Positions 20,708 through 32,768 of a stretch of 56,453 bases of DNA are shown one piece after another. Source of the stretch: Candidatus Edwardsiibacteriota bacterium. Lineage in GTDB: Bacteria; Edwardsbacteria; AC1; EtOH8. Where the stretch lies: assembly GCA_020053305.1 (NCBI GenBank), contig JAGVNJ010000044.1, forward strand, positions 1 through 56,453, given 5' to 3'. Below the pieces are notes generated by a model. That model saw only the letters and a list, made by a program, of their open reading frames with translations, searched no databases and was not told where the DNA came from. Within the stretch, counting starts at the first letter, position 1. The number at the start of each line of letters is the position of its first letter. The position numbers and the translations under genes were made by a program.

Positions 20708-21406
20708 CTATATTCCCCTCAAAACCACCCTTTCCACCAATCCTTCCGCCCTCTTCCTCATCTCCTCCAAATATTCTTCATTATATGGCGGCAAACTACG
20801 GAGCCCCTCGTCATCGGCATTGGTTTGGACAAACTGCTGTAGTACCCACTTTTTTGCCCCTTTTATCTCCCGGGCCATGTTTTCCACCGAATCCAGGTCG
20901 TGATATTGCGGCACTATGGTGGTGCGGAACTCGTAGTCCAGCCCGGAGGACATGATCAAAGCGATGCTTTCCCTGATATTCTCCTTATTGACGGCAACCC
21001 CGCAGGCCAGGTCATAGGACCCGTCGAAGGAGGCTTTTATGTCCATGGCGATGAATTCGACCAGGCCACCGTTGATTATCCTCTTTAATTGATCCGGATC
21101 GCTGCCGTTGGTGTCCAATTTGGCCGGCAGGCCCAATCCTTTCAGTTTCGCCAGCAGGGGCATCAGTTCCTTATGGATGGTCGGCTCGCCCCCGGTGATC
21201 ACCACCCCGTCTATCCAGCCCTTCTTGCCCCTTAAAAATGATTCTATACGTTCCCAGGGGACATCGGCGATCTGCTCCGGATGCTTGACCAATATATGGT
21301 TATGGCAGAACGGGCAGCGGAAGTTGCAGCCGGGAAGAAAAACGACTGAGACGATCTTTCCGTCCCAGTCGATCAGCGAGGTTTCGATAAAGCCTTTTAT
21401 TTCCAT
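20708..21406 (-). CDS. nrdG: Anaerobic RNR-activating protein NrdG
   Basis: Radical SAM activase that installs the glycyl radical on class III ribonucleotide reductase. The motif CNFRCPFC (C27, C31, C34) binds the [4Fe-4S] cluster, followed by 'GGEPTIHKEL' (SAM-binding GGE), 'KLDTNGS' and 'DIKASFD'. The 232-aa length fits the longer NrdG/PflA-like subtype. In this genome its substrate glycine should lie in the separate 95-aa protein at 22093-22380 rather than in NrdD. It is the last gene of the nrd locus in the direction of transcription. Confidence 0.9.
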   Translation of the reverse strand: MEIKGFIETSLIDWDGKIVSVVFLPGCNFRCPFCHNHILVKHPEQIADVPWERIESFLRGKKGWIDGVVITGGEPTIHKELMPLLAKLKGLGLPAKLDTNGSDPDQLKRIINGGLVEFIAMDIKASFDGSYDLACGVAVNKENIRESIALIMSSGLDYEFRTTIVPQYHDLDSVENMAREIKGAKKWVLQQFVQTNADDEGLRSLPPYNEEYLEEMRKRAEGLVERVVLRGI

Positions 21407-21606: not shown

Positions 21607-21882
21607 TTATACCGCCGGGTCCAGGTAGGGCTTTAATTCCTTGGACAACGGGGGCCGTTTGACCCAGCGGTCCATTTCATCCTCGTTATTCAGCAGGACC
21701 ACGGTGGGGATGTCGAACACCTCGTAGAAGGCGCCTTCGGCCAAGCCGTCCACCGTATCCATGTCGAAGTAATTGAGGGGCACCTTGCCCTGGAATTCCC
21801 ACTTATCCAGGAAATAATTGATCTTCTCCATGGCCTGCTTGCAGACCTGGCAGGTGGGCCGGCCGAAAACTTTCAGTTCCAT
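21607..21882 (-). CDS. Glutaredoxin/NrdH-like thiol redoxin
   Basis: A 91-aa thioredoxin-fold protein with the N-terminal 'VFGRPTCQVCKQA' motif (CxxC at about C11/C14) and the cis-proline segment 'DIPTVVLLN'. Glutaredoxin-like proteins in class III RNR operons accompany the redoxin-dependent NrdD2 subtype, in which the redoxin rather than formate supplies electrons. Placement between the glycyl-radical gene and nrdG fits this. ATG 21882 is preferred to the in-frame TTG at 21891. No clear Shine-Dalgarno. Confidence 0.85.
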   Translation of the reverse strand: MELKVFGRPTCQVCKQAMEKINYFLDKWEFQGKVPLNYFDMDTVDGLAEGAFYEVFDIPTVVLLNNEDEMDRWVKRPPLSKELKPYLDPAV

Positions 21883-21938
21883 TATAATCAAATCTCTATA
21901 TTATTGGTTTCGATTTTAAACTTTATATTATGCCCTAC

Positions 21939-22092: not shown

Positions 22093-22380
22093 TTAGGCTA
22101 TCTGGGAGTGGTAGCGGTCCTTGAGCTCGCCCAGCTTGCCCTTGTTCCAGCCCTCGACGATGGTGAAATAGCCGGTGACCCGGGTGATGTGATTGACGTC
22201 GCGGCCGCCCACGGTCTGGCTTTTGATGGTGGCCCAGTCGTGCTTGGCGACGGCCTCGGCGCTGCAGCGCACCTTGACCCCGTGCTTCTTGTTGCGGATG
22301 ATTACATCCCCGCCCTCTTCGGTGAAGTCGTAGATGTGCTTTTCGGCGCTAAGTTTGTCTTTCAGTTCCTGCAGTTCCAT
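22093..22380 (-). CDS. Stand-alone glycyl-radical subunit of class III RNR
   Basis: A 95-aa protein whose last 32 residues are the C-terminal glycyl-radical loop of NrdD: HITRVTGYF (Gly70 is the predicted radical site), then WNKGK and LKDRYH. The first 60 residues (charged, 'YDFTEEGGDVIIRNKKHGVKV') do not resemble NrdD. AGGAG lies about 9 bases before ATG 22380, so it is an intended start, not a fragment. NrdD at 24668-27097 ends where this piece should begin. By analogy with GrcA/YfiD, the stand-alone glycyl domain for pyruvate formate-lyase, this should dock onto NrdD after activation by NrdG. The domain call is firm, the partnership inferred. Confidence 0.85.
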   Translation of the reverse strand: MELQELKDKLSAEKHIYDFTEEGGDVIIRNKKHGVKVRCSAEAVAKHDWATIKSQTVGGRDVNHITRVTGYFTIVEGWNKGKLGELKDRYHSQIA

Positions 22381-22401
22381 GATGTTTATCTCCTTTTGTT
22401 G

Positions 22402-22515
22402 GGGCAATTCATGAATTGCCCTTACGTTATTAGTTTCTATATTCTGTTGGGACACGGCATACCGTGCCCTTACTTGTTTACGACGGAGTGGGCGGGTTTT
22501 AAAGCCCGCCCAACT
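22402..22515. repeat. Three successive GGGC...GCCC palindromes
   Basis: Upstream of the glycyl-radical gene: GGGCAATTC-AT-GAATTGCCC (22402-22421), a GGG(A)CACGG / CCGTGCCC hairpin (22449-22469) and GGGCGGG / CCCGCCC (22490-22511). The first two end in GCCC-TTAC, so they look like members of one dispersed palindrome family differing only in the inner arms. Confidence 0.7.
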
Positions 22516-22519
22516 CCTA

Positions 22520-22618
22520 TTAACGAAGGAAGAGAGCCAAAATAGCTGCCAATGCAAGCAAAATTCTGGCAATGTTAACATCTATCTTAACCTCAACCTT
22601 CTTCTCGTTCCTCTTCAT
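22520..22618 (-). CDS. 32-aa single-span membrane micropeptide
   Basis: A very short gene: ATG at 22618, TAA at 22522-22520. The product has a charged N-terminal half (MKRNEKKVEVKIDVN) and one hydrophobic helix (IARILLALAAILALFL) ending in Arg. AGGGG lies 8 bases before the ATG. This charged-then-hydrophobic layout is characteristic of regulatory membrane micropeptides. It lies between the creD-like gene and the glycyl-radical gene on the same strand. No homologue is recognised; the reading rests on composition and the ribosome site. Confidence 0.55.
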   Translation of the reverse strand: MKRNEKKVEVKIDVNIARILLALAAILALFLR

Positions 22619-22703
22619 TATATTTACCCCTGAAAAGGTCCGAGGGCCCCCAGACCGTTTGTGGTTTGGGTTTTACTTTATTTATCGTGGCGTTGCAACC
22701 ACG

Positions 22704-22733
22704 CTAATGTTATTGTCCGGACAACAACATTAG
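22704..22733. repeat. 30-bp near-perfect palindrome
   Basis: Fifteen-base half-sites meeting at CC|GG with one mismatch (14 of 15 pairs). With no loop it could be a dimeric protein-binding site or a cruciform-forming repeat. Confidence 0.7.
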
Positions 22734-22821
22734 TTCGGATATTCAAAAACAGTTTAGCCTCCCGCTTGGTCTGTTTTCACAGACGGCGGCTCAGCGACTA
22801 ATAATTGAACACCCTTAAGCC

Positions 22822-22882
22822 GGAGTTAAGAACTCCAACCCCGCGTGTCTTAAGCACGCGTATCTTAAACTCCATCCGGAGT
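22822..22882. repeat. Array of three small hairpins
   Basis: GGAGTT-AAG-AACTCC, CGCGTG-TCTTAAG-CACGCG and ACTCC-ATCC-GGAGT occur in series, separated by short TTAA-containing linkers, making a regular three-hairpin unit. Confidence 0.65.
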
Positions 22883-22928
22883 ATAAGGTTCATGTAAAGA
22901 ACAATTACTCTAGCCCAATTAATTTCCT

Positions 22929-22971
22929 GGATTGCTTCGCTTGTCCTGCACAGCTGTCCCCTCGCAATGAC
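22929..22971. repeat. Dispersed 'GGATTGCTTC...CTCGCAATGAC' element
   Basis: Starts GGATTGCTTCGC and ends CTCGCAATGAC, the ends of a palindromic element that is widespread in bacteria. A second, diverged copy lies at 56153-56195. Confidence 0.6.
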
Positions 22972-23061
22972 TCATCCCTTCCCGCATCGGGAAGGGGCAG
23001 GGGTTAGGTCCGTGCGAAGGCCCTTCGCTACTGTCCTCTGTCCCCTGTATCCTGTATCCCG

Positions 23062-23407
23062 GTATCAACCTTTCCCAAAAAACTGCTTATCCCAGTCTAT
23101 CCTGGCCGTAAACTGCATCACCACGAACAGTCTTTCCTCACCGAACTCATCCCTCGTTCCCTTCTCTTCGCAAGAGAAGGGGCAGGATTGAGTTGGTCAG
23201 TTATCAGGTCTTCCCCAAAAACTGCTTATCCCAGTCTATCCTGGCCGTAAACTGCATTACCACGAACAGTCTTTCCTCACCGAACTCATCCCTCGTTCCC
23301 TTCTCTTCGCAAGAGAAGGGGCAGGATTGAGTTGGTCAGTTATCAGGTCTTCCCCGAAAACTGCTTGTCCCAATCAATCCTGGCCGTGAACTGCATGACC
23401 ACGAACA
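23062..23407. repeat. 139-bp tandem repeat derived from creD-like 3' end
   Basis: Two full 139-bp units (about 23062-23200 and 23201-23339) are followed by a third partial copy (about 23340-23407) that is the real 3' end of the creD-like gene. Over the shared 69 bases copy 2 and the gene differ at about six positions. The other half of each unit contains a CTTCTCTT/AAGAGAAG hairpin. The tail of the gene was thus copied downstream twice with that hairpin. Confidence 0.85.
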
Positions 23408-24575
23408 GCGTGGCAATGCAGCAGATGGTGATGGCCAGTCCGGTGTAGCCCTCCCAGAAGAAGGCGTAGGAAAAGAACACCAGATACACCAGCTGGGCCA
23501 GGGCCGTCTCCACCAGGGCAAAGCGGGCCCCGGCCACGATCCGCATGTAGGACACCGCCAGGAACACCGACACCGCCGCGCTGATGAAGAACGCCAGGTA
23601 GATGTCGGCATGGTCCGCCAGGTAGGCCATCAGCAGGTGGAAGGCGAAGAACGACGCGGCCAGGAAGAAGTAATGCATGGGGTGCAGCTTGATGCCGCGC
23701 AGGGTGGTGATGATGAACACCAAAAAGAAGAACAGGAACAGCGATACCGGGGCGAAGAAGCTGATCTTGCTGACGAAGGGGCCGGGGTTTATCTTCTTGG
23801 GCATCTCCATGCCGATCTGGATCCCGGAGATCAGGTTGGTGTACTGCCAGTCCAGATCCCATCCCCCGCCCTTCTTGGCCTTGGCGGTGGGCGAGATGGC
23901 GTTCTCCGGGAAATCTATCCGCCCGAAATCGGTGGTCATGGCCAGCCGGAAATTGCGGATCTGCGAGATATTGTCGCCGAAGACATACCACCACTGGTCC
24001 AGCCCCTGGGAGCGGTAGGCCACCCGCACCTGGGCGGTCTCGCCGGGCTTCAGCCGGATCCATTTACTGATCTTGCCGTCGGTGGGCACCAGTTCCTTTT
24101 CCGGCAGGCCGTTGACCGAGATGGCGAAATCGTCGTAGCTGCCGTCCCGGGAGGGGAAGGAATACTGGAAGCAGAGCTGGCGGGCATCCTGGGTGCTGTT
24201 GATCAAACCGTAGGTGCCGTCGAAATCCACCTGGTAGGTGGAATACCACAGCAGGCCCTTCTTGCGGTGGTTCAGCCTCAGGTCGGCCCTGATGTCGCTG
24301 GATTCCAGGTTCAGGTAGTAATCGGACAGACTGGTCCTGGTTTCGGTGACGGTCTTGCCCCCCTCGGTGGTCCTGACCACCTTCTGCTCCTGCTTGACCT
24401 GGTAGAACACCAGCGGCGCGCTCTGGCGCTGGGGGGTGCCCCACAGCTGGCCCACCGCCCGTTTGAGCTTGTTGTCCTGGGAGTTGGTGCGGTCCGCCGT
24501 GACCCCGCCCAAGATCACCCAGGCCATGGCGGTGCAGAAGAAGACGAAGACGATGGCGGCTATCTTTTTGGCCAT
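23343..24575 (-). CDS. CreD-like inner-membrane protein
   Basis: Membrane protein of the CreD family (in E. coli part of the CreBC regulon; biochemical role unknown). One N-terminal transmembrane helix (about 3-22), a large periplasmic beta-rich domain (about 25-265), then five to six transmembrane helices with the family motif 'LRGIKLHPMHYFFLAASFF' and the terminal 'RIDWD'. ATG 24575 is preceded by GAGGTG and gives 410 aa; longer in-frame readings run into the intergenic region. It sits directly after nrdD on the same strand, an unusual neighbour. Its 3' end is duplicated downstream in tandem. Confidence 0.85.
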   Translation of the reverse strand: MAKKIAAIVFVFFCTAMAWVILGGVTADRTNSQDNKLKRAVGQLWGTPQRQSAPLVFYQVKQEQKVVRTTEGGKTVTETRTSLSDYYLNLESSDIRADLRLNHRKKGLLWYSTYQVDFDGTYGLINSTQDARQLCFQYSFPSRDGSYDDFAISVNGLPEKELVPTDGKISKWIRLKPGETAQVRVAYRSQGLDQWWYVFGDNISQIRNFRLAMTTDFGRIDFPENAISPTAKAKKGGGWDLDWQYTNLISGIQIGMEMPKKINPGPFVSKISFFAPVSLFLFFFLVFIITTLRGIKLHPMHYFFLAASFFAFHLLMAYLADHADIYLAFFISAAVSVFLAVSYMRIVAGARFALVETALAQLVYLVFFSYAFFWEGYTGLAITICCIATLFVVMQFTARIDWDKQFSGKT

Positions 24576-24667
24576 GATCGCACCTCGGAATGAATTTTGA
24601 ATATCGAATGCAGAATATTGAATCGACTTTGCCTGCTTCTGAATTCTGTCTTCAATATTCTTTAGGT

Positions 24668-27097
24668 CTATTTGATCCTCTCTATCCCGCTGACCCTCTT
24701 CCCGCTGCAGTGCGGGCACTCGTCCATCAGGCCCCGGTAGACCTTGCTGCAGACGTTGCAGGTGGTGAACTCAGGAGAGAAGGCGATCTGGGCGTTGCGG
24801 GTGTGGCGGAAGGTCTTGGTGACGAAGTTGGCGATGGACTCCGGGGAGGGGTGCGAATCGGCGATCCAGATATGGGTCAAGGCCCCGGCCTCGATCATGT
24901 CGTGGAACTTGCCCTCCTGCTTGACCCGGTCGATGGGGTTGATGGGATGGGCCACGTTCAGGTAGGTGGAGTTGGTGTAGTAGACCGAATTGTCCTTGAG
25001 GTTGCCCTTGACCACCTTCTCGGCCTCCTTGGGAAAGTGCTCCAGGTCCAGCTTGGCGAAGCGGAAGGCGGTGCTCTCGGCCGGGGTCTGCTCCAGCACA
25101 AACTTCATGTTGTATTCCTTGGCCAGCTCCTTGGTCTTGAGGTGCAGGTAGGCTATGATCTTCAGGCCGAACTTGAAGGCCTCGGTGGACTCATGCATCT
25201 CCTGGCCGGTGTGGACCTGGACCATCTCGTTGAGGCCCAGCATCCCTATCAGGAACGACACCCGGGGCAGGCGCAGGTAGCTCTCGCCGTCCTTCTCCAT
25301 GGCCAGCAGAGCCAGCGGACCCTGGTCCTTCAGGGCCATCAGCTTCTCGATGAACTTGCGCTTCTGGATATGGCCCTTAGCGGAGAGGTGCAGGAAGTCA
25401 TCCATCTTTTTGAACAGGGCGTTGGTGTCGCCCTTGGCCAGATAGGCGATGCGCGGCAGGTTCAAAGTGATGTTCTGCAGGGCGGAATATCTCATCTTCC
25501 ATGGGAAGTGGGCGTCTTGAAGATCGGATTCCTCCAGCTTGAAGGCCAGCCGGCAGCATTCGGAGATCTTGGCGGTCTCGCCCCGGTCGAACACGAAATA
25601 GGTGTTGCCCTTCTCGGCCGCCACCTGGGAGATATGGTTCAAAAAGTCCTGGTGGCCGGGGGTCAGGTAGAATTTCTCGGTGATGTGCACCTGGGGCTTG
25701 GGAAAGAAGAACGGGCGACCGGTGCCGTCCCCGCCCTTATAGATGTCGAACAGGGCCCAGGCGAAGCGCTGGGATTCCTTTAAATAATCGCCGTATTTCT
25801 TGCCGGTGTATTCGCCGCCCGGGCCGATAGCCGGGACGTTCTCGAAGTGCTTGGGGGTCTCCCAGTAGATGTTCAGGTCGGAGAAGATGGCCTGGCCGCC
25901 CCGGGCCACCGACTGCTGGCTGTATTCGAAGATCATCATCTGGGCCAGCTGCTGCAGGTCGCGTTCGGACATGCCCACCAGGTACGGGGCGAAGAAGACA
26001 TTGACGGCATCCCAGCCGATGGCCCCGGCGAAGTGCCCCTGCAGGGCGGCCGAGAATTTCACCATGTGGGCCAGCAGGGTGTCGGCGTGCCTGGCCGGCT
26101 TGGCGATGGACAGGGCATTGGGCAGGGACAGCCCATACTTTTTGACATATTCCAGGCTCTGCCCGGAGCAATAGGGCCGGTTGATGAAGCCCAGGTCATG
26201 CAGGTGGATATCGCCCCGGGAATGGGCGTCGGCCACCTCCTGGGAGAAGACCTTGGCCAGGGCATACTGCTTGTTGATGGTCTCGGCCAGCGACATGTTG
26301 GTGGCCTCGGGGTTGTGGGGGATGTTGGCGTTCTCCCGGTTGCGGTCGGTCAGGATCTTCTCCACATCGAACAGGGGCAGACCCAGCCGGGAATGCTTCT
26401 TGCGGGCCTCCTCCAGGCCATGCTCCACCAGTTTGGCATCCACCAGTTCGCGGACCAGGGACGAGGTCAGGCGCTTGACCTTGGCGTTGATGATCTGGTC
26501 CTCCACCTCCCGGGCCACCTTGTGTGCGATATCCTCGGCCACCCCGGCCTCCTTTTTAAGGGCGACTATGATCCGCTCCCGGTCCCACTGGACGATGTTG
26601 TCATCCGACACCCGGACGAACAGCGCCAGGTCGGTGGCATCCTGCTCCTTTCCGGCCTCTGCCGAATCGGGCTTAGAAACGATCTTCTGCTGGCGGATCT
26701 TGGACCGCTGGTCGCGGTAAAGAATATAGGCCTTGGCGGTCTTGGCATGGCCCCGTTCTATCAGGATTTTTTCCACAGCATCCTGGACCTGTTCCACATT
26801 GGGCAGATGGTCGCCCTTGGAGGAATACAAAAAAAGCACCACCTCGTCGGCCAGGTTCTCGGAAACGCTGCTGTCCGAGCCGCCCACCGCCTGGGCCGCC
26901 TGAAAGATGGCCTCGGTGATCTTGCGTTTGTCGAAATTGACGATATTGCCGTTGCGCTTCTGCACCAGATGGAACATCTTGCTGGCCAGAGAGCTGTGCA
27001 GGTCCTTGATCTTCTCTCCGGCGAATAAAAAGCGGGGAGGCTCCTGGGGGTCGGGGGTGGACGGGCTGGCTAGTAGCTCACGGTTTTTATCTGGCAT
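24668..27097 (-). CDS. nrdD: Class III RNR large subunit NrdD lacking glycyl tail
   Basis: Anaerobic ribonucleoside-triphosphate reductase. Two N-terminal ATP-cone domains (about 41-135 and 160-245) precede the ten-stranded barrel, with 'HLHDLGFINRPYC' (C310), a conserved ECCRL (C514/C515, candidate thiyl-radical Cys), NITLNLPRI and the zinc-binding CNVC...CPHC (C780, C783, C794, C797). It then ends at SGIERIK, residue 809. Normal NrdDs continue for about 40-60 residues with the RVxGY glycyl-radical loop, absent here. GAGGGAG precedes the ATG by 2 bases, and the start is 8 bases from the nrdR stop. It must borrow its radical, most likely from the protein at 22093-22380. Confidence 0.92.
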   Translation of the reverse strand: MPDKNRELLASPSTPDPQEPPRFLFAGEKIKDLHSSLASKMFHLVQKRNGNIVNFDKRKITEAIFQAAQAVGGSDSSVSENLADEVVLFLYSSKGDHLPNVEQVQDAVEKILIERGHAKTAKAYILYRDQRSKIRQQKIVSKPDSAEAGKEQDATDLALFVRVSDDNIVQWDRERIIVALKKEAGVAEDIAHKVAREVEDQIINAKVKRLTSSLVRELVDAKLVEHGLEEARKKHSRLGLPLFDVEKILTDRNRENANIPHNPEATNMSLAETINKQYALAKVFSQEVADAHSRGDIHLHDLGFINRPYCSGQSLEYVKKYGLSLPNALSIAKPARHADTLLAHMVKFSAALQGHFAGAIGWDAVNVFFAPYLVGMSERDLQQLAQMMIFEYSQQSVARGGQAIFSDLNIYWETPKHFENVPAIGPGGEYTGKKYGDYLKESQRFAWALFDIYKGGDGTGRPFFFPKPQVHITEKFYLTPGHQDFLNHISQVAAEKGNTYFVFDRGETAKISECCRLAFKLEESDLQDAHFPWKMRYSALQNITLNLPRIAYLAKGDTNALFKKMDDFLHLSAKGHIQKRKFIEKLMALKDQGPLALLAMEKDGESYLRLPRVSFLIGMLGLNEMVQVHTGQEMHESTEAFKFGLKIIAYLHLKTKELAKEYNMKFVLEQTPAESTAFRFAKLDLEHFPKEAEKVVKGNLKDNSVYYTNSTYLNVAHPINPIDRVKQEGKFHDMIEAGALTHIWIADSHPSPESIANFVTKTFRHTRNAQIAFSPEFTTCNVCSKVYRGLMDECPHCSGKRVSGIERIK

Positions 27098-27104
27098 TGC
27101 TCCC

Positions 27105-27578
27105 TCACTTTTTTATATTTTTCTGCTGGTTTTTTTCGGCGAATGACTTGGCCGCATCGGCGAACTCGGACACCTCGCGGAAGGAACGATAGACCGAGGC
27201 GAATCTAACGTAGGCCACCCCGTCCAGTTCCTGGAGATGCTTCATCACATGTTCCCCGATGACATCGGCCGGCACCTCGTTGTGGCCCCCCGCCTGGAGC
27301 TCGTTCTCTATGGTCTCAACCATCTTCTCCAGGGCGTCGATGCTGATGGGCCTCTTCTCCACCGCCCGGCGGATGCCGGAAATAAGCTTTTGGTGGTCAA
27401 AAGCCTCGCGCCGGCCGTCTTTTTTGACGACCATCAGGGCTGATTCTATGTACTCGTAGGTGGTGTAACGGCGATGGCATTGAAGGCATTCCCGGCGGCG
27501 GCGAATGGCCTGGCCATCCTTACATAAGCGGGAGTCGATCACCTTGTCCTTGGGGAAAGTACAGGCTGGACATTTCAT
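27105..27578 (-). CDS. nrdR: Transcriptional repressor NrdR
   Basis: Zinc-ribbon plus ATP-cone repressor of ribonucleotide reductase genes. The zinc ribbon is CPAC...CLQC (about C3, C6, C31, C34), followed by an ATP-cone (about 49-139: 'VKKDGRREAFDHQKLISGIRRA', 'GVAYVRFASVYR'). The 157-aa length is standard. First gene of the nrd operon; with dATP bound it should repress its own promoter and hence nrdD. AAAGGGG lies about 8 bases upstream of the ATG. Confidence 0.96.
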   Translation of the reverse strand: MKCPACTFPKDKVIDSRLCKDGQAIRRRRECLQCHRRYTTYEYIESALMVVKKDGRREAFDHQKLISGIRRAVEKRPISIDALEKMVETIENELQAGGHNEVPADVIGEHVMKHLQELDGVAYVRFASVYRSFREVSEFADAAKSFAEKNQQKNIKK

Positions 27579-29104: not shown

Positions 29105-31888
29105 TTATTTGACCAGCACCATCTTTCTGGCGTGGCTGAACTCGCCGGAGGCCAGCTTGTAGATATACACTCCTTGGGCCACCTTCCTTCCGGCATCGTC
29201 CTTGGCATCCCACATGACCTGATGGTAGCCGGAATTATGCTGTCCCGAGACCAAGGTTCTGACCAGCTGTCCGTTGAGATTGTATATCTTCAGGGAAACA
29301 TCGCCCGGCTTCTCCAATTGGTAGGCGATCAGGGTCTTGTACCTGACCGGATTGGGGGCGTTCTGGAACAGCAGGTTGGATAGCGGCATCCCCTGCGGAT
29401 TGAGCCTGGTCTCCAATTCATCATCGTTGATCGGGCTGCTCCAGGCTGCCGGCGGGGTGAACAGCGCCGCCGTATTGGCCGCGGCGGTGGCCGCCACGCC
29501 CAGCGTGCCGGCCTGGTTCTCCACCCCCGAGGCATAGGTCTCGGTGGTGATGCTGCCCCACTGGATCTTGATCTTGCCGTCGGGGGTCAGGATCACCTGG
29601 AAGGTTTGCAGGCTGGTATTGGAATAGTTCTTGACGGCGTTGAATGACACCACGAACTTGGTGGCCGAGGAGTAGTAGGTGATGGTTCCGCCGCCCGATA
29701 CGTTAAGGTCCCTCCACAATCCGGCTATCAAAGCATTGGGAACCGCGGTGTTGGGGATGGCGGCCGGGGTGTAGGCGGTGGAGCTGGTGCCGAAATTGAG
29801 GAACCCGTTGGAGCAGATGTTGACGGCAGTATAGCTGGTTCCGTAGAAATTGAAAGCGAAGCCGATATTGACGGCTACCGCCTGGTCGTCACCGGTCAGG
29901 CCGCTGGCCGTGGTGGCCGAGGCATCCCAGCTGTAGGTGGCGGTGCTCTTGGTGTAATTTGCGGTGGTGCCGCCGCTGGAGCCGCCCTTGATATACTCGT
30001 CCCACTGGGTATTAGCCGCCACCGGCAGGCTGTTGTACTTGACGTCGTAATTGGAGCCGTCGATCTTGCAGTGGTATACCGCGATGCCCCTGGCGTTGGC
30101 GTAGGTGGTGGAGTTCTTATACAATTTGACCGAGTTGGTCACCGCACTGATGATATTGTCGCAAGCGGTGGTCAGGGTGGGCCGGGTGGTTATCTGGGCC
30201 TTGACCTTGGCGGCGAAGTCCGACAGGTCGATGTGATACAGGAAATAGCTGGGGGAGAACTTCAGGGTGTTGTTGAGAGCGGTGCTGATGCTGGTTCCCA
30301 GGCCCGCCCCCCGGGCCGCCATCAGCTCGGTGGACAGGGTGTTGATCTTGGTGCCCAGGTCTGCCATCAGTGTCAGGTCCACCACCGACAACGTCGCTTG
30401 GCTCGGGGTGCCGTTGATGATGGCCTTACCCAGGTCTATGGCGCTCATGGTGGGCGTAGTGTTCAGGCTGTTGAGGAAGGTGGTGTAATACCAGCCGGCG
30501 GCTCCTTCTGTTTCCTCGGAGGCGTTGGCCACGTTGGCATAGCCCTTGGCGATGTCCAGCACCTCCCACATCCCCATCAGGCAGGCATCCCAGCCCACAT
30601 GATCCAAATTGCGGCCCAGGTAGGTCTTGATCTGGCTCAGGGCGTTGGCCATCTCGCCGTTGCTTATATCGATCACCGAGCCGTGCGAGTTGTCGTTGGA
30701 GAATCCCTTGAATATCGGGGAGCCGTCATCGGTTTTGTACCAGCCGTCGCCGTGGTCCCACATCACCAGCGAATATTTGTTGGCCGGGTAGTTCTGGAGG
30801 GCCCATTTGGCGAAGTCGGCCAGGGTCTGGGGGTTGCCCATGTCCACCTCGCCGATGTCCGAGATCTGGTTGGCCGCGATCGGAGTCATGCCGGCGGCTA
30901 TCTTGAACCGTTTACAGCTGGTCCAGTTGTCATAGCCGGTGGCGTAGCTCGAAGCCCGGTCCATCTGGACTATGACGTTGACCTTGCCCGAGCTGTAGGA
31001 GGCGTTCGACATTTCGATGAAGTCGTCGAGCCCATATTGCTCCAGATCGTTGTCGGCGTTCAGGTAGACCATGATGGTCCACTCGGCGGTGGAGGAAATG
31101 CTGTTGGAAACACTAACCGTGTTGGTGGCGGAGGTGCCGACATTGTTGGCCGCGTCGTAGGCCTTGGCATAGACGGTATGGTTGCCGTTGGAATAGTCGG
31201 TGGTGACCCAAGAGTAGGAATAGGGCGAAGAAGTATCGGTGCCCTTGAGGACGCCGTCAATATAGAAATCTACCTTGCTGACGCCGACGTTGTCCGAGGC
31301 CGTGGCGGTAACCGTGGTGGTGCCGGAGACGGTGGCCCCGTTGGCCGGGGCGGTGAGGGACACCGCGGGAGCCTGGGTGTCGGTGGTGGAGGCGGTGCCG
31401 CTCAGCACCACATCGTCAATATATACTCCGGTGTTGGTAACGCTGGCATCGGAATTAAAATAGAACCGGACCTGGGTGGCGGTGCTGGGGATGCTGACCG
31501 ACTGCTGGGCCCAGGCCTGGTAACTGCCGGCCCTCTGCCAGGCGGTGGTCCAGGTGGTGCCGACCAGATACTGCACCCGAAGATAGTCGTATCCGCTCTC
31601 GCTGTACTGCCAGATGTAGAATTTCAGGGTAACGCCGGTATATCCCGACAAACTGACCGTTTTGGTCATGTAATTGTTCTGGTTGTTGGCATATGGACTG
31701 ACATCATCGCACCTGGCGCTGTAGGATGAACTGTAATATTTGGTGGAGGTCGTGGTCCAGCCACCAGTGGTGGGCGACAGGGTCCAACCGGTTAAAGAGG
31801 TCATATTGTCCGAGAAGATGGTGGTCTGGGCTGATGCCATCCCCGTTAAAATGAAGAGGGCGGATACCAGTAAACCTAACTTTTTCAT
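29105..31888 (-). CDS. Secreted clostripain-like (C11) cysteine peptidase
   Basis: Modular secreted protease: signal peptide (1-20), jelly-roll domain (about 22-165), Ig-like domain (about 172-262), clostripain-family C11 catalytic domain (about 268-640) with the His-Cys dyad in MWDHGDGW (H379) and WDACLMG (C436), a second beta domain (about 650-825), and a FlgD/T9SS-type sorting tail (about 845-927, 'FQNAPNPVRYKT... GVYIYKL'). Clostripain cleaves after Arg and family members often need self-processing. It is 22 bases downstream of the C14-like lipoprotein gene on the same strand, suggesting one operon with two clan CD proteases. AAAGG is upstream of the ATG. Confidence 0.9.
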   Translation of the reverse strand: MKKLGLLVSALFILTGMASAQTTIFSDNMTSLTGWTLSPTTGGWTTTSTKYYSSSYSARCDDVSPYANNQNNYMTKTVSLSGYTGVTLKFYIWQYSESGYDYLRVQYLVGTTWTTAWQRAGSYQAWAQQSVSIPSTATQVRFYFNSDASVTNTGVYIDDVVLSGTASTTDTQAPAVSLTAPANGATVSGTTTVTATASDNVGVSKVDFYIDGVLKGTDTSSPYSYSWVTTDYSNGNHTVYAKAYDAANNVGTSATNTVSVSNSISSTAEWTIMVYLNADNDLEQYGLDDFIEMSNASYSSGKVNVIVQMDRASSYATGYDNWTSCKRFKIAAGMTPIAANQISDIGEVDMGNPQTLADFAKWALQNYPANKYSLVMWDHGDGWYKTDDGSPIFKGFSNDNSHGSVIDISNGEMANALSQIKTYLGRNLDHVGWDACLMGMWEVLDIAKGYANVANASEETEGAAGWYYTTFLNSLNTTPTMSAIDLGKAIINGTPSQATLSVVDLTLMADLGTKINTLSTELMAARGAGLGTSISTALNNTLKFSPSYFLYHIDLSDFAAKVKAQITTRPTLTTACDNIISAVTNSVKLYKNSTTYANARGIAVYHCKIDGSNYDVKYNSLPVAANTQWDEYIKGGSSGGTTANYTKSTATYSWDASATTASGLTGDDQAVAVNIGFAFNFYGTSYTAVNICSNGFLNFGTSSTAYTPAAIPNTAVPNALIAGLWRDLNVSGGGTITYYSSATKFVVSFNAVKNYSNTSLQTFQVILTPDGKIKIQWGSITTETYASGVENQAGTLGVAATAAANTAALFTPPAAWSSPINDDELETRLNPQGMPLSNLLFQNAPNPVRYKTLIAYQLEKPGDVSLKIYNLNGQLVRTLVSGQHNSGYHQVMWDAKDDAGRKVAQGVYIYKLASGEFSHARKMVLVK

Positions 31889-31910
31889 GGGAATAGCCTT
31901 TCAAAATTAT

Positions 31911-32768
31911 TTATAGGTTAAGATCGCCGGTGTAGGAATCTATATAGGACGGAGCCACCCTCACTTTTACGGTAGTGGCCCAAATCTTCATCTGCTCGCA
32001 GGCGTATATGCAATCTGGTTCGTAGTAAATGTAGCCCAGCGCGTCGAAGCCCTTCATCTGGTAATATGTGAACACGCCGTTCTGCATGGTGGTGTTCCCA
32101 TCGTAAGAATAGGTTGTGGTGTTGGAAGCCACGGCTATTACTCGGCCGGCCTTTTTTAATGCCGTGCCGAAGGCCCCTATCTGGCAGGCATCAAAGGCGA
32201 AGGCCATCTTCAGGCTGGCAGCATTGGCAAAAATTGTGGCGAACCAGGAACTGCTAAGATAATAGAGGTCGCAGGAGATCATGTTGCCCTTAGATCCGTG
32301 GCCGGAGTAGCAGAAGGCGATCTCGCTTCCGGCTATGGAGCGGCTGGCCAAGGTATTCACCTGGCTTTCGATGTTGGCCCTAGTAGCCTGGCCGTCGGTA
32401 AGGATGGTGACCGTATATCCCTCCGTTTTAAGGCGGGCCGCCCAATCTCGGGCATCATCATCGCAGTATTTTAGGTCGTTGGCCGTTCCGGCATAGTCGG
32501 AAATTCCTATCACCAAGGCGTACTTGGCACCCTTCGGGGCGTTTTTGTCAAGTTCGGCCGGCTGGACATCCAGCCCGGTAAGCTTGTACTGGGCTATCAT
32601 CTCGGATGGTCTGGTGTCAACTGTTTCAAAATCGGGGCGGATGGTAAAGCTGGCTGCCGGATCTTGACCGTCACTTAGATCAGGAGCCAATGGGTTGTTC
32701 TTGCTACAACCCAAGGCCAGAAAAGCGATGACCAGCAACACTGCGCTTACTCTGAATAAACCCTTCAT
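31911..32768 (-). CDS. Caspase-like (C14) peptidase lipoprotein
   Basis: A 285-aa lipoprotein (lipobox ALGC, Cys 21) carrying one caspase/metacaspase p20-like domain (about 80-240). Visible pattern: 'KYALVIGISDYAGTANDLKYCDDDA' start, the catalytic His in YSGHGSKG (H157) and the catalytic Cys in FDACQIG (C195). The Cys-Ala-His geometry matches active family C14. GGAGGGG lies just before the ATG. It is encoded directly upstream of the C11 peptidase, on the same strand. A membrane-anchored caspase-fold protease could process the secreted C11 enzyme or other envelope proteins; that is inference. Confidence 0.88.
   Translation of the reverse strand: MKGLFRVSAVLLVIAFLALGCSKNNPLAPDLSDGQDPAASFTIRPDFETVDTRPSEMIAQYKLTGLDVQPAELDKNAPKGAKYALVIGISDYAGTANDLKYCDDDARDWAARLKTEGYTVTILTDGQATRANIESQVNTLASRSIAGSEIAFCYSGHGSKGNMISCDLYYLSSSWFATIFANAASLKMAFAFDACQIGAFGTALKKAGRVIAVASNTTTYSYDGNTTMQNGVFTYYQMKGFDALGYIYYEPDCIYACEQMKIWATTVKVRVAPSYIDSYTGDLNL

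Follow-up and report, generated by a model that had tools for sequence, protein, structure and literature searches.

Our analysis points to a class III ribonucleotide reductase (RNR) made of two subunits, a NrdD barrel that has lost its own glycyl-radical tail and a stand-alone 95-aa glycyl-radical protein, which would have descended from a spare part before it became an obligatory subunit. We put the probability of this reading at roughly 0.87. Both genes lie in the window, i.e. the whole stretch of DNA that was analysed, a 56,453-nt contig (JAGVNJ010000044.1, assembly GCA_020053305.1) from a Candidatus Edwardsiibacteriota bacterium (Table 1). Ribonucleotide reductase is essential for DNA, and oxygen destroys its class III form by cutting the chain at the radical glycine.

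Table 1. Features of the nrd region in the window, followed by the archaeal NrdDs that are divided within the zinc ribbon
Feature	Position	Strand	Evidence
NrdG2-type radical SAM activase	20708..21406	-	TIGR02495, 189 bits, above cut-off
Glutaredoxin/thioredoxin-like protein (CQVC), probable electron donor	21607..21885	-	Glrx-like 6e-4, Thioredoxin 0.01 (weak Pfam)
Stand-alone glycyl-radical protein (95 aa)	22093..22380	-	PF13597 530-560
Gly70 codon, predicted radical glycine	22171..22173	-	invariant in 24/24 aligned family members
Ribosome-binding site AAGGAG of the small gene	22390..22395	-	sequence
CreD-like membrane protein between the two NrdD pieces	23343..24575	-	PF06123 partial
NrdD barrel subunit (class III RNR catalytic protein, 809 aa)	24668..27097	-	PF13597 1-539/562, 438 bits
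NrdR regulator, directly upstream of NrdD	27105..27578	-	PF03477 + PF22811
Archaeal zinc-ribbon-split NrdDs	L052:4029-6111; L053:1744-3903		first CxxC on barrel

The NrdD of the window comprises N-terminal ATP-cone matches (PF03477, in two stretches), a 10-stranded barrel, the finger loop SECCR and a four-cysteine zinc ribbon, and its glycyl-radical tail is absent. The catalytic and zinc cysteines are intact (SECCR; RPYCSG in beta-A; C..C/C..C), and the solved NrdDs 8p23, 9d3x, 4coi, 4u3e and 1h78 were all matched by the protein using phmmer. The C-terminus reads CPHC-SGKRVSGIERIK and the stop codon follows 12 residues past the last zinc CxxC, the final residues being ...CPHCSGKRVSGIERIK. In the alignment with P. 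copri NrdD (8p23), window residue 808 falls opposite chain residue 713, and the radical glycine, located by the aligned RITGY, is chain residue 715 (Gly711 in the numbering of the original paper, PMC11226230). The window chain stops one residue short of this glycine and holds no glycyl-radical loop. It ends with EGIKRIK, versus EGITRITGYF in full-length relatives, and thereby retains a GIxRIK stub overlapping the HITRVT segment of which the small protein has a copy. Oxygen would cut the radical enzyme at the position of this truncation. Stop-codon readthrough was rejected, the in-frame continuation past the stop holding no tail, and so was a sequencing error, the end point being common to all readable Edwardsbacteria C-termini. 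AlphaFold gave no usable fold for the barrel (pLDDT 41, alignment of four sequences).

The small gene is located 2.3 kb downstream of NrdD on the same strand, and its relatives carry AGGAGG/GGGGG-type ribosome sites in the same place. Its product consists of an N-terminal domain (residues 1-58), a radical loop RVTGY with Gly70, and a WNKGK tail; residues 60-90 match PF13597 and include HITRVTGYF, GWNKGK and LKDRYH. Gly70 aligns with the radical glycine of chain 8p23. PF13597 recognised 24 of 24 family members versus 0 of 24 for the PFL-type Gly_radical model. No Pfam model covers the N-terminal domain in any of the 24 members scanned. The AlphaFold model predicts a helix, three strands and two helices for this domain (pLDDT about 60-80) and a disordered tail, and a Foldseek search of the model against the PDB returned no match below E 0.001.

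In these respects the earlier note on this DNA, made from the sequence alone, has held up well. It had described a tail-less NrdD, and the PF13597 match indeed stops short of the model end. The separate 95-aa tail gene and its own ribosome site upstream of the ATG were both recovered, and the extra N-terminal part proved to be a conserved domain with homologues across phyla even when the tail is removed. The NrdG and redoxin that it placed beside the small gene are there as well, as NrdG2 (TIGR02495) and the CQVC protein.

NrdG2, the partner activase of class III RNR, sits in the same cluster as NrdD. The gene order nrdR-nrdD-(creD)-small-redoxin-nrdG was found in every contiguous Edwardsbacteria case; the redoxin gene has a conserved place beside the small gene in Edwardsbacteria and beside NrdD elsewhere. 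The CreD-like gene between the two pieces, missing or reduced in three loci (L037, L039, L040), is probably a bystander. An Rfam search found no RNA element in the nrd intergenic region, with sub-threshold matches only, near 20.64-20.73 kb. A long, apparently non-coding stretch (22400-23060), also without Rfam match, separates the CreD-like from the small gene and contains a palindrome at 22704-22733. Next to it, at 23063-23408, lie 139-nt tandem direct repeats (two copies plus a partial third), in which the 3' end of the CreD-like gene is repeated together with sequence downstream of it.

The whole host genome (2.59 Mb, 99% complete) was searched for RNR. PF13597 matches nothing in it other than NrdD and the small protein, and a search for a class I/II reductase (PF02867) found none. 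A second full-length NrdD, one of the findings which the earlier note had named as refuting its own proposal, was not found there. The host group has relatives named Candidatus Edwardsbacteria and UBP2, and ten genomes served as family sample; none of the ten yielded a second NrdD or a class I/II RNR. NrdD occurs in eight of them together with the small protein, and the remaining two have neither. In one of these two (G005) the NrdG2 match begins at base 218, at the contig start, so the nrd locus was probably lost in a gap. In the other (G003; same genus, listed as 100% complete, 9 contigs), searches found no NrdD, small protein, class I/II RNR or NrdG2 above cut-off, and its contig ends carry no nrd genes. 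Identity of the small protein across three Edwardsbacteria genera is 66-98%, and six further Edwardsbacteria NrdDs whose C-terminus is readable stop at the same residue as that of the window. The dN/dS values (0.05-0.25 for NrdD, 0.05-0.58 for the small protein) show purifying selection on both genes. Wherever the locus of an Edwardsbacteria genome is readable, the pair of barrel and small protein is conserved.

The HMM search for the 95-aa family suggested in the earlier note found homologues across phyla, including some beside tail-less NrdDs. Relatives match the 95-aa protein over its full length (family alignment A4, 24 members). HMMs of the N-terminal domain, built with the tail removed, link Edwardsbacteria, Thermoplasmata and several other bacterial families, and Margulisbacteria more weakly; matches across phyla reach E values of 4e-13, whereas shuffled decoys gave nothing better than 0.04. 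In the phylum Margulisbacteria the stand-alone protein is present in 19 of 74 genomes, and in 17 of these an NrdD whose tail is complete was seen as well, mostly as a tandem pair. Full-length NrdD and small protein also occur together in Thermoplasmata (G158, G217, G148, G061) and in further bacteria (G545, G543, G592, G842, G714). Coexistence with a full-length enzyme, as expected of a spare part, is hence seen outside Edwardsbacteria, while Edwardsbacteria itself has no full-length partner. At five Margulisbacteria loci (L147, L155-L158) two tandem full-length NrdDs of the same subtype are located between nrdR and the redoxin gene, and in one member of the Margulisiibacteriota (G062, locus L050) the stand-alone protein was present and no NrdD barrel was found. 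Stand-alone members were also detected on eight IMG/VR contigs (L306-L310, L313, L314, L317), some of them with phage-gene neighbours, namely terminase (L313; weak in L306), DnaB helicase and RNA ligase (L310) and DNA polymerase exonuclease (L309); the named phage and plasmid collections yielded no stand-alone copy. Judged by these matches, the family, which has no family name, is widespread beyond Edwardsbacteria in bacteria, archaea and phages.

Tail-less barrels accompanied by the stand-alone protein were also found in G831, G686, G815, G618, G755, G871 and the Thermoplasmata genome G266. In these seven genomes the barrel ends or degenerates soon after the second zinc CxxC (that of G755 is spread over two contigs), the glycine loop is gone, and the stand-alone gene is either adjacent or elsewhere. 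All 13 tail-less barrels examined keep the finger-loop and zinc cysteines and 12 of them the beta-A motif; the remaining one, L265, comes from a divergent clade in which full-length sisters likewise lack the pattern. In a NrdD tree built without the tail columns, the tail-less state requires six changes, five of them forced by supported branches. As far as the tree can tell, NrdD has lost its own tail independently in at least five lineages. Both states occur within a single family, full-length NrdD plus small protein in G545 and tail-less NrdD plus small protein in G686 and G815.

A census of 389 bacterial genomes was based on the barrel to avoid choosing genomes by the small protein. Among families with the same NrdD type, the stand-alone protein was present in 5/5 tail-less families versus 3/18 full-length families searched (p=0.0017), counts at family level that are not fully independent. 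A stricter phylogenetic independent-pairs (sign) test gave five supported pairs and no contrary pair, too few for significance.

NrdDs divided in other ways were met as well. In the RSMCCR clade the barrel often ends near model position 525-535, and a tail ORF of 45-96 aa follows directly, or the tail is fused to a redoxin. In some copies barrel, insert and tail still share a single frame. Members of this clade in Margulisbacteria and many other bacterial families (L109-L128, L276-L285) have the tail split off or preceded by an insert, and one gene of 819 aa (L124) unites barrel, tail and redoxin. In several of these splits the barrel end and the tail start both look coiled-coil-like by eye, and the two helices might pair in place of a covalent link. 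Where a tail ORF overlaps the barrel, as some do by tens of bases, frameshifting is possible. In Hydrothermarchaeum and a related archaeon (L052, L053) the split lies inside the zinc ribbon, leaving one CxxC per protein; the small protein of roughly 50 aa carries the second CxxC and the glycyl loop, has its own ribosome site and is followed by a redoxin gene, in L052 also by NrdG. These NrdDs (L109-L123, L276-L285; L052, L053) resemble the Edwardsbacteria pair in having the glycyl-radical tail on a separate ORF. They differ from it in that the tail ORF is adjacent and without the N-domain family; Hydrothermarchaeum differs further by its split zinc ribbon. The RSMCCR clade was split independently of the Edwardsbacteria-type NrdD.

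From sequence anatomy, conservation, co-distribution, repeated tail loss and synteny, which were observed, we infer docking, radical formation on Gly70, radical transfer, activity and, in genomes with full-length NrdD, a role in repair. The tail-less barrel would be subunit 1, contributing the nucleotide sites, the SECCR finger-loop cysteines, the beta-A cysteine and the zinc ribbon, and the 95-aa protein would be subunit 2, supplying the radical glycine. NrdG2 would install the glycyl radical on Gly70; the small protein would then dock by inserting its RVTGY loop into the barrel, the radical would move on to the finger-loop cysteine, and the neighbouring redoxin would re-reduce the enzyme. 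Thioredoxin is the electron supply of the N. bacilliformis enzyme (as reported in PMC4493059). Since the barrel keeps a GIxRIK segment that is also present in the small protein, one copy must move aside; such a displacement has been proposed for YfiD on cleaved pyruvate formate-lyase (PMC8683613). As for the origin, the small protein would at first have been a spare part of the YfiD/GrcA type that replaced the oxygen-cleaved tail of an intact NrdD, a stage that would still be visible in those relatives whose NrdD is full-length. The NrdD tail would later have been lost in Edwardsbacteria and, by separate events, in several other lineages, and the spare part have turned into an obligatory subunit. 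That a spare-part family spread across bacteria, archaea and phages became an essential subunit in at least five lineages, after loss of the oxygen-vulnerable segment, seems to us a reasonably likely course of events.

Conservation, co-distribution, neighbourhood, the lack of another reductase and the repeated independent occurrence together support the split into barrel and radical protein that the earlier note proposed. Any scenario in which the truncation is a pseudogene or an assembly artefact, with the real enzyme encoded elsewhere, is scarcely credible. It could draw on the fact that most genomes compared are metagenome assemblies and that G003 lacks the whole locus, but the same end point recurs in three genera under purifying selection, and the ten family genomes hold neither a second NrdD nor a class I/II RNR. 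Only slightly less improbable is a small protein that serves solely for repair or backup, next to a tail-less NrdD that is active by other means, e.g. by another radical site in the barrel. Some relatives of the glycyl radical enzymes do use Ala/Ser/Thr radicals (PMC11528403), and the many genomes that hold the family alongside full-length NrdD indicate that its first role was probably repair. However, the tail-less barrels are missing the whole radical loop and not just the glycine, and no tail-less NrdD of this type was found in a genome without the stand-alone protein.

Simple gene fission would lead to the same present function by a different origin, without any spare part. We consider this unlikely, though it deserves more weight than a dead gene or a pure backup. 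Plain fission did take place in NrdD: the RSMCCR clade with its adjacent or redoxin-fused tails and the Hydrothermarchaeum split within the zinc ribbon are examples. In contrast, the Edwardsbacteria protein has its conserved N-domain in common with stand-alone proteins of genomes with full-length NrdD, a GIxRIx stub was left on the barrel, and a single family shows both the tail-less and the full-length state, all of which favours descent from a spare part.

The comparison with YfiD/GrcA drawn in the earlier note gains strength from the many genomes in which the same small family coexists with full-length NrdD, and it can be extended to Y06I of phage T4. YfiD/GrcA replaces the tail of pyruvate formate-lyase after oxygen has cut it at the radical glycine, and Y06I is likewise a spare part of pyruvate formate-lyase (PMC8683613). 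Like both, the protein described here is small and stands alone, has a distinct N-terminal part, repeats the C-terminal glycyl-radical loop of its enzyme, is predicted to partner a barrel without this loop, and is also phage-borne. Unlike YfiD/GrcA, it belongs to the NrdD family (PF13597) and so to another enzyme, and homology of the IPR011140 type was not found. Its N-domain is its own and predicted to be folded, whereas that of YfiD is disordered; and the Edwardsbacteria barrel is truncated genetically, which makes the part constitutive instead of a repair option. The double-cysteine NrdD of T. maritima (4U3E/4COI, PMC4493059) shares the barrel, the zinc ribbon, the double-cysteine motif, NrdG and a probable thiol reductant, but in Edwardsbacteria the glycyl-radical loop is on a separate polypeptide. 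The split class II RNR NrdJa/NrdJb of Pseudomonas aeruginosa (PMC4520616) is similar in that the RNR polypeptide is encoded by two genes; class, cofactor and split point are different, and it has no separate radical-bearing part.

The earlier note knew of no well-described equivalent for NrdD. A search of the open-access literature, with subscription journals mostly outside its reach, likewise found neither a two-piece class III RNR nor a NrdD spare part. The nearest statement is a speculation by the authors of the 2021 YfiD paper that other glycyl radical enzymes, too, may have spare parts (PMC8683613). To our knowledge, the combination of class III RNR with the spare-part principle is new, each of the two being known separately.

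With a radical part that is cheap and exchangeable, cells and phages could repair class III RNR. The family offers natural experiments in both states, repair-like and obligate, and makes radical installation on a separate chain, docking, oxygen damage and repair, and the transition from accessory protein to subunit accessible to experiments. It may also explain NrdD entries of truncated appearance. At least one large RNR phylogeny excluded all sequences under 400 residues (PMC9531940).

Outside the nrd region, two secreted peptidase-like genes, recognised by eye, lie side by side at 29105-32768 of the window. The larger one encodes 927 aa with an apparent clostripain-like part and a C-terminal sorting signal, the smaller one a caspase-like lipoprotein of 285 aa.
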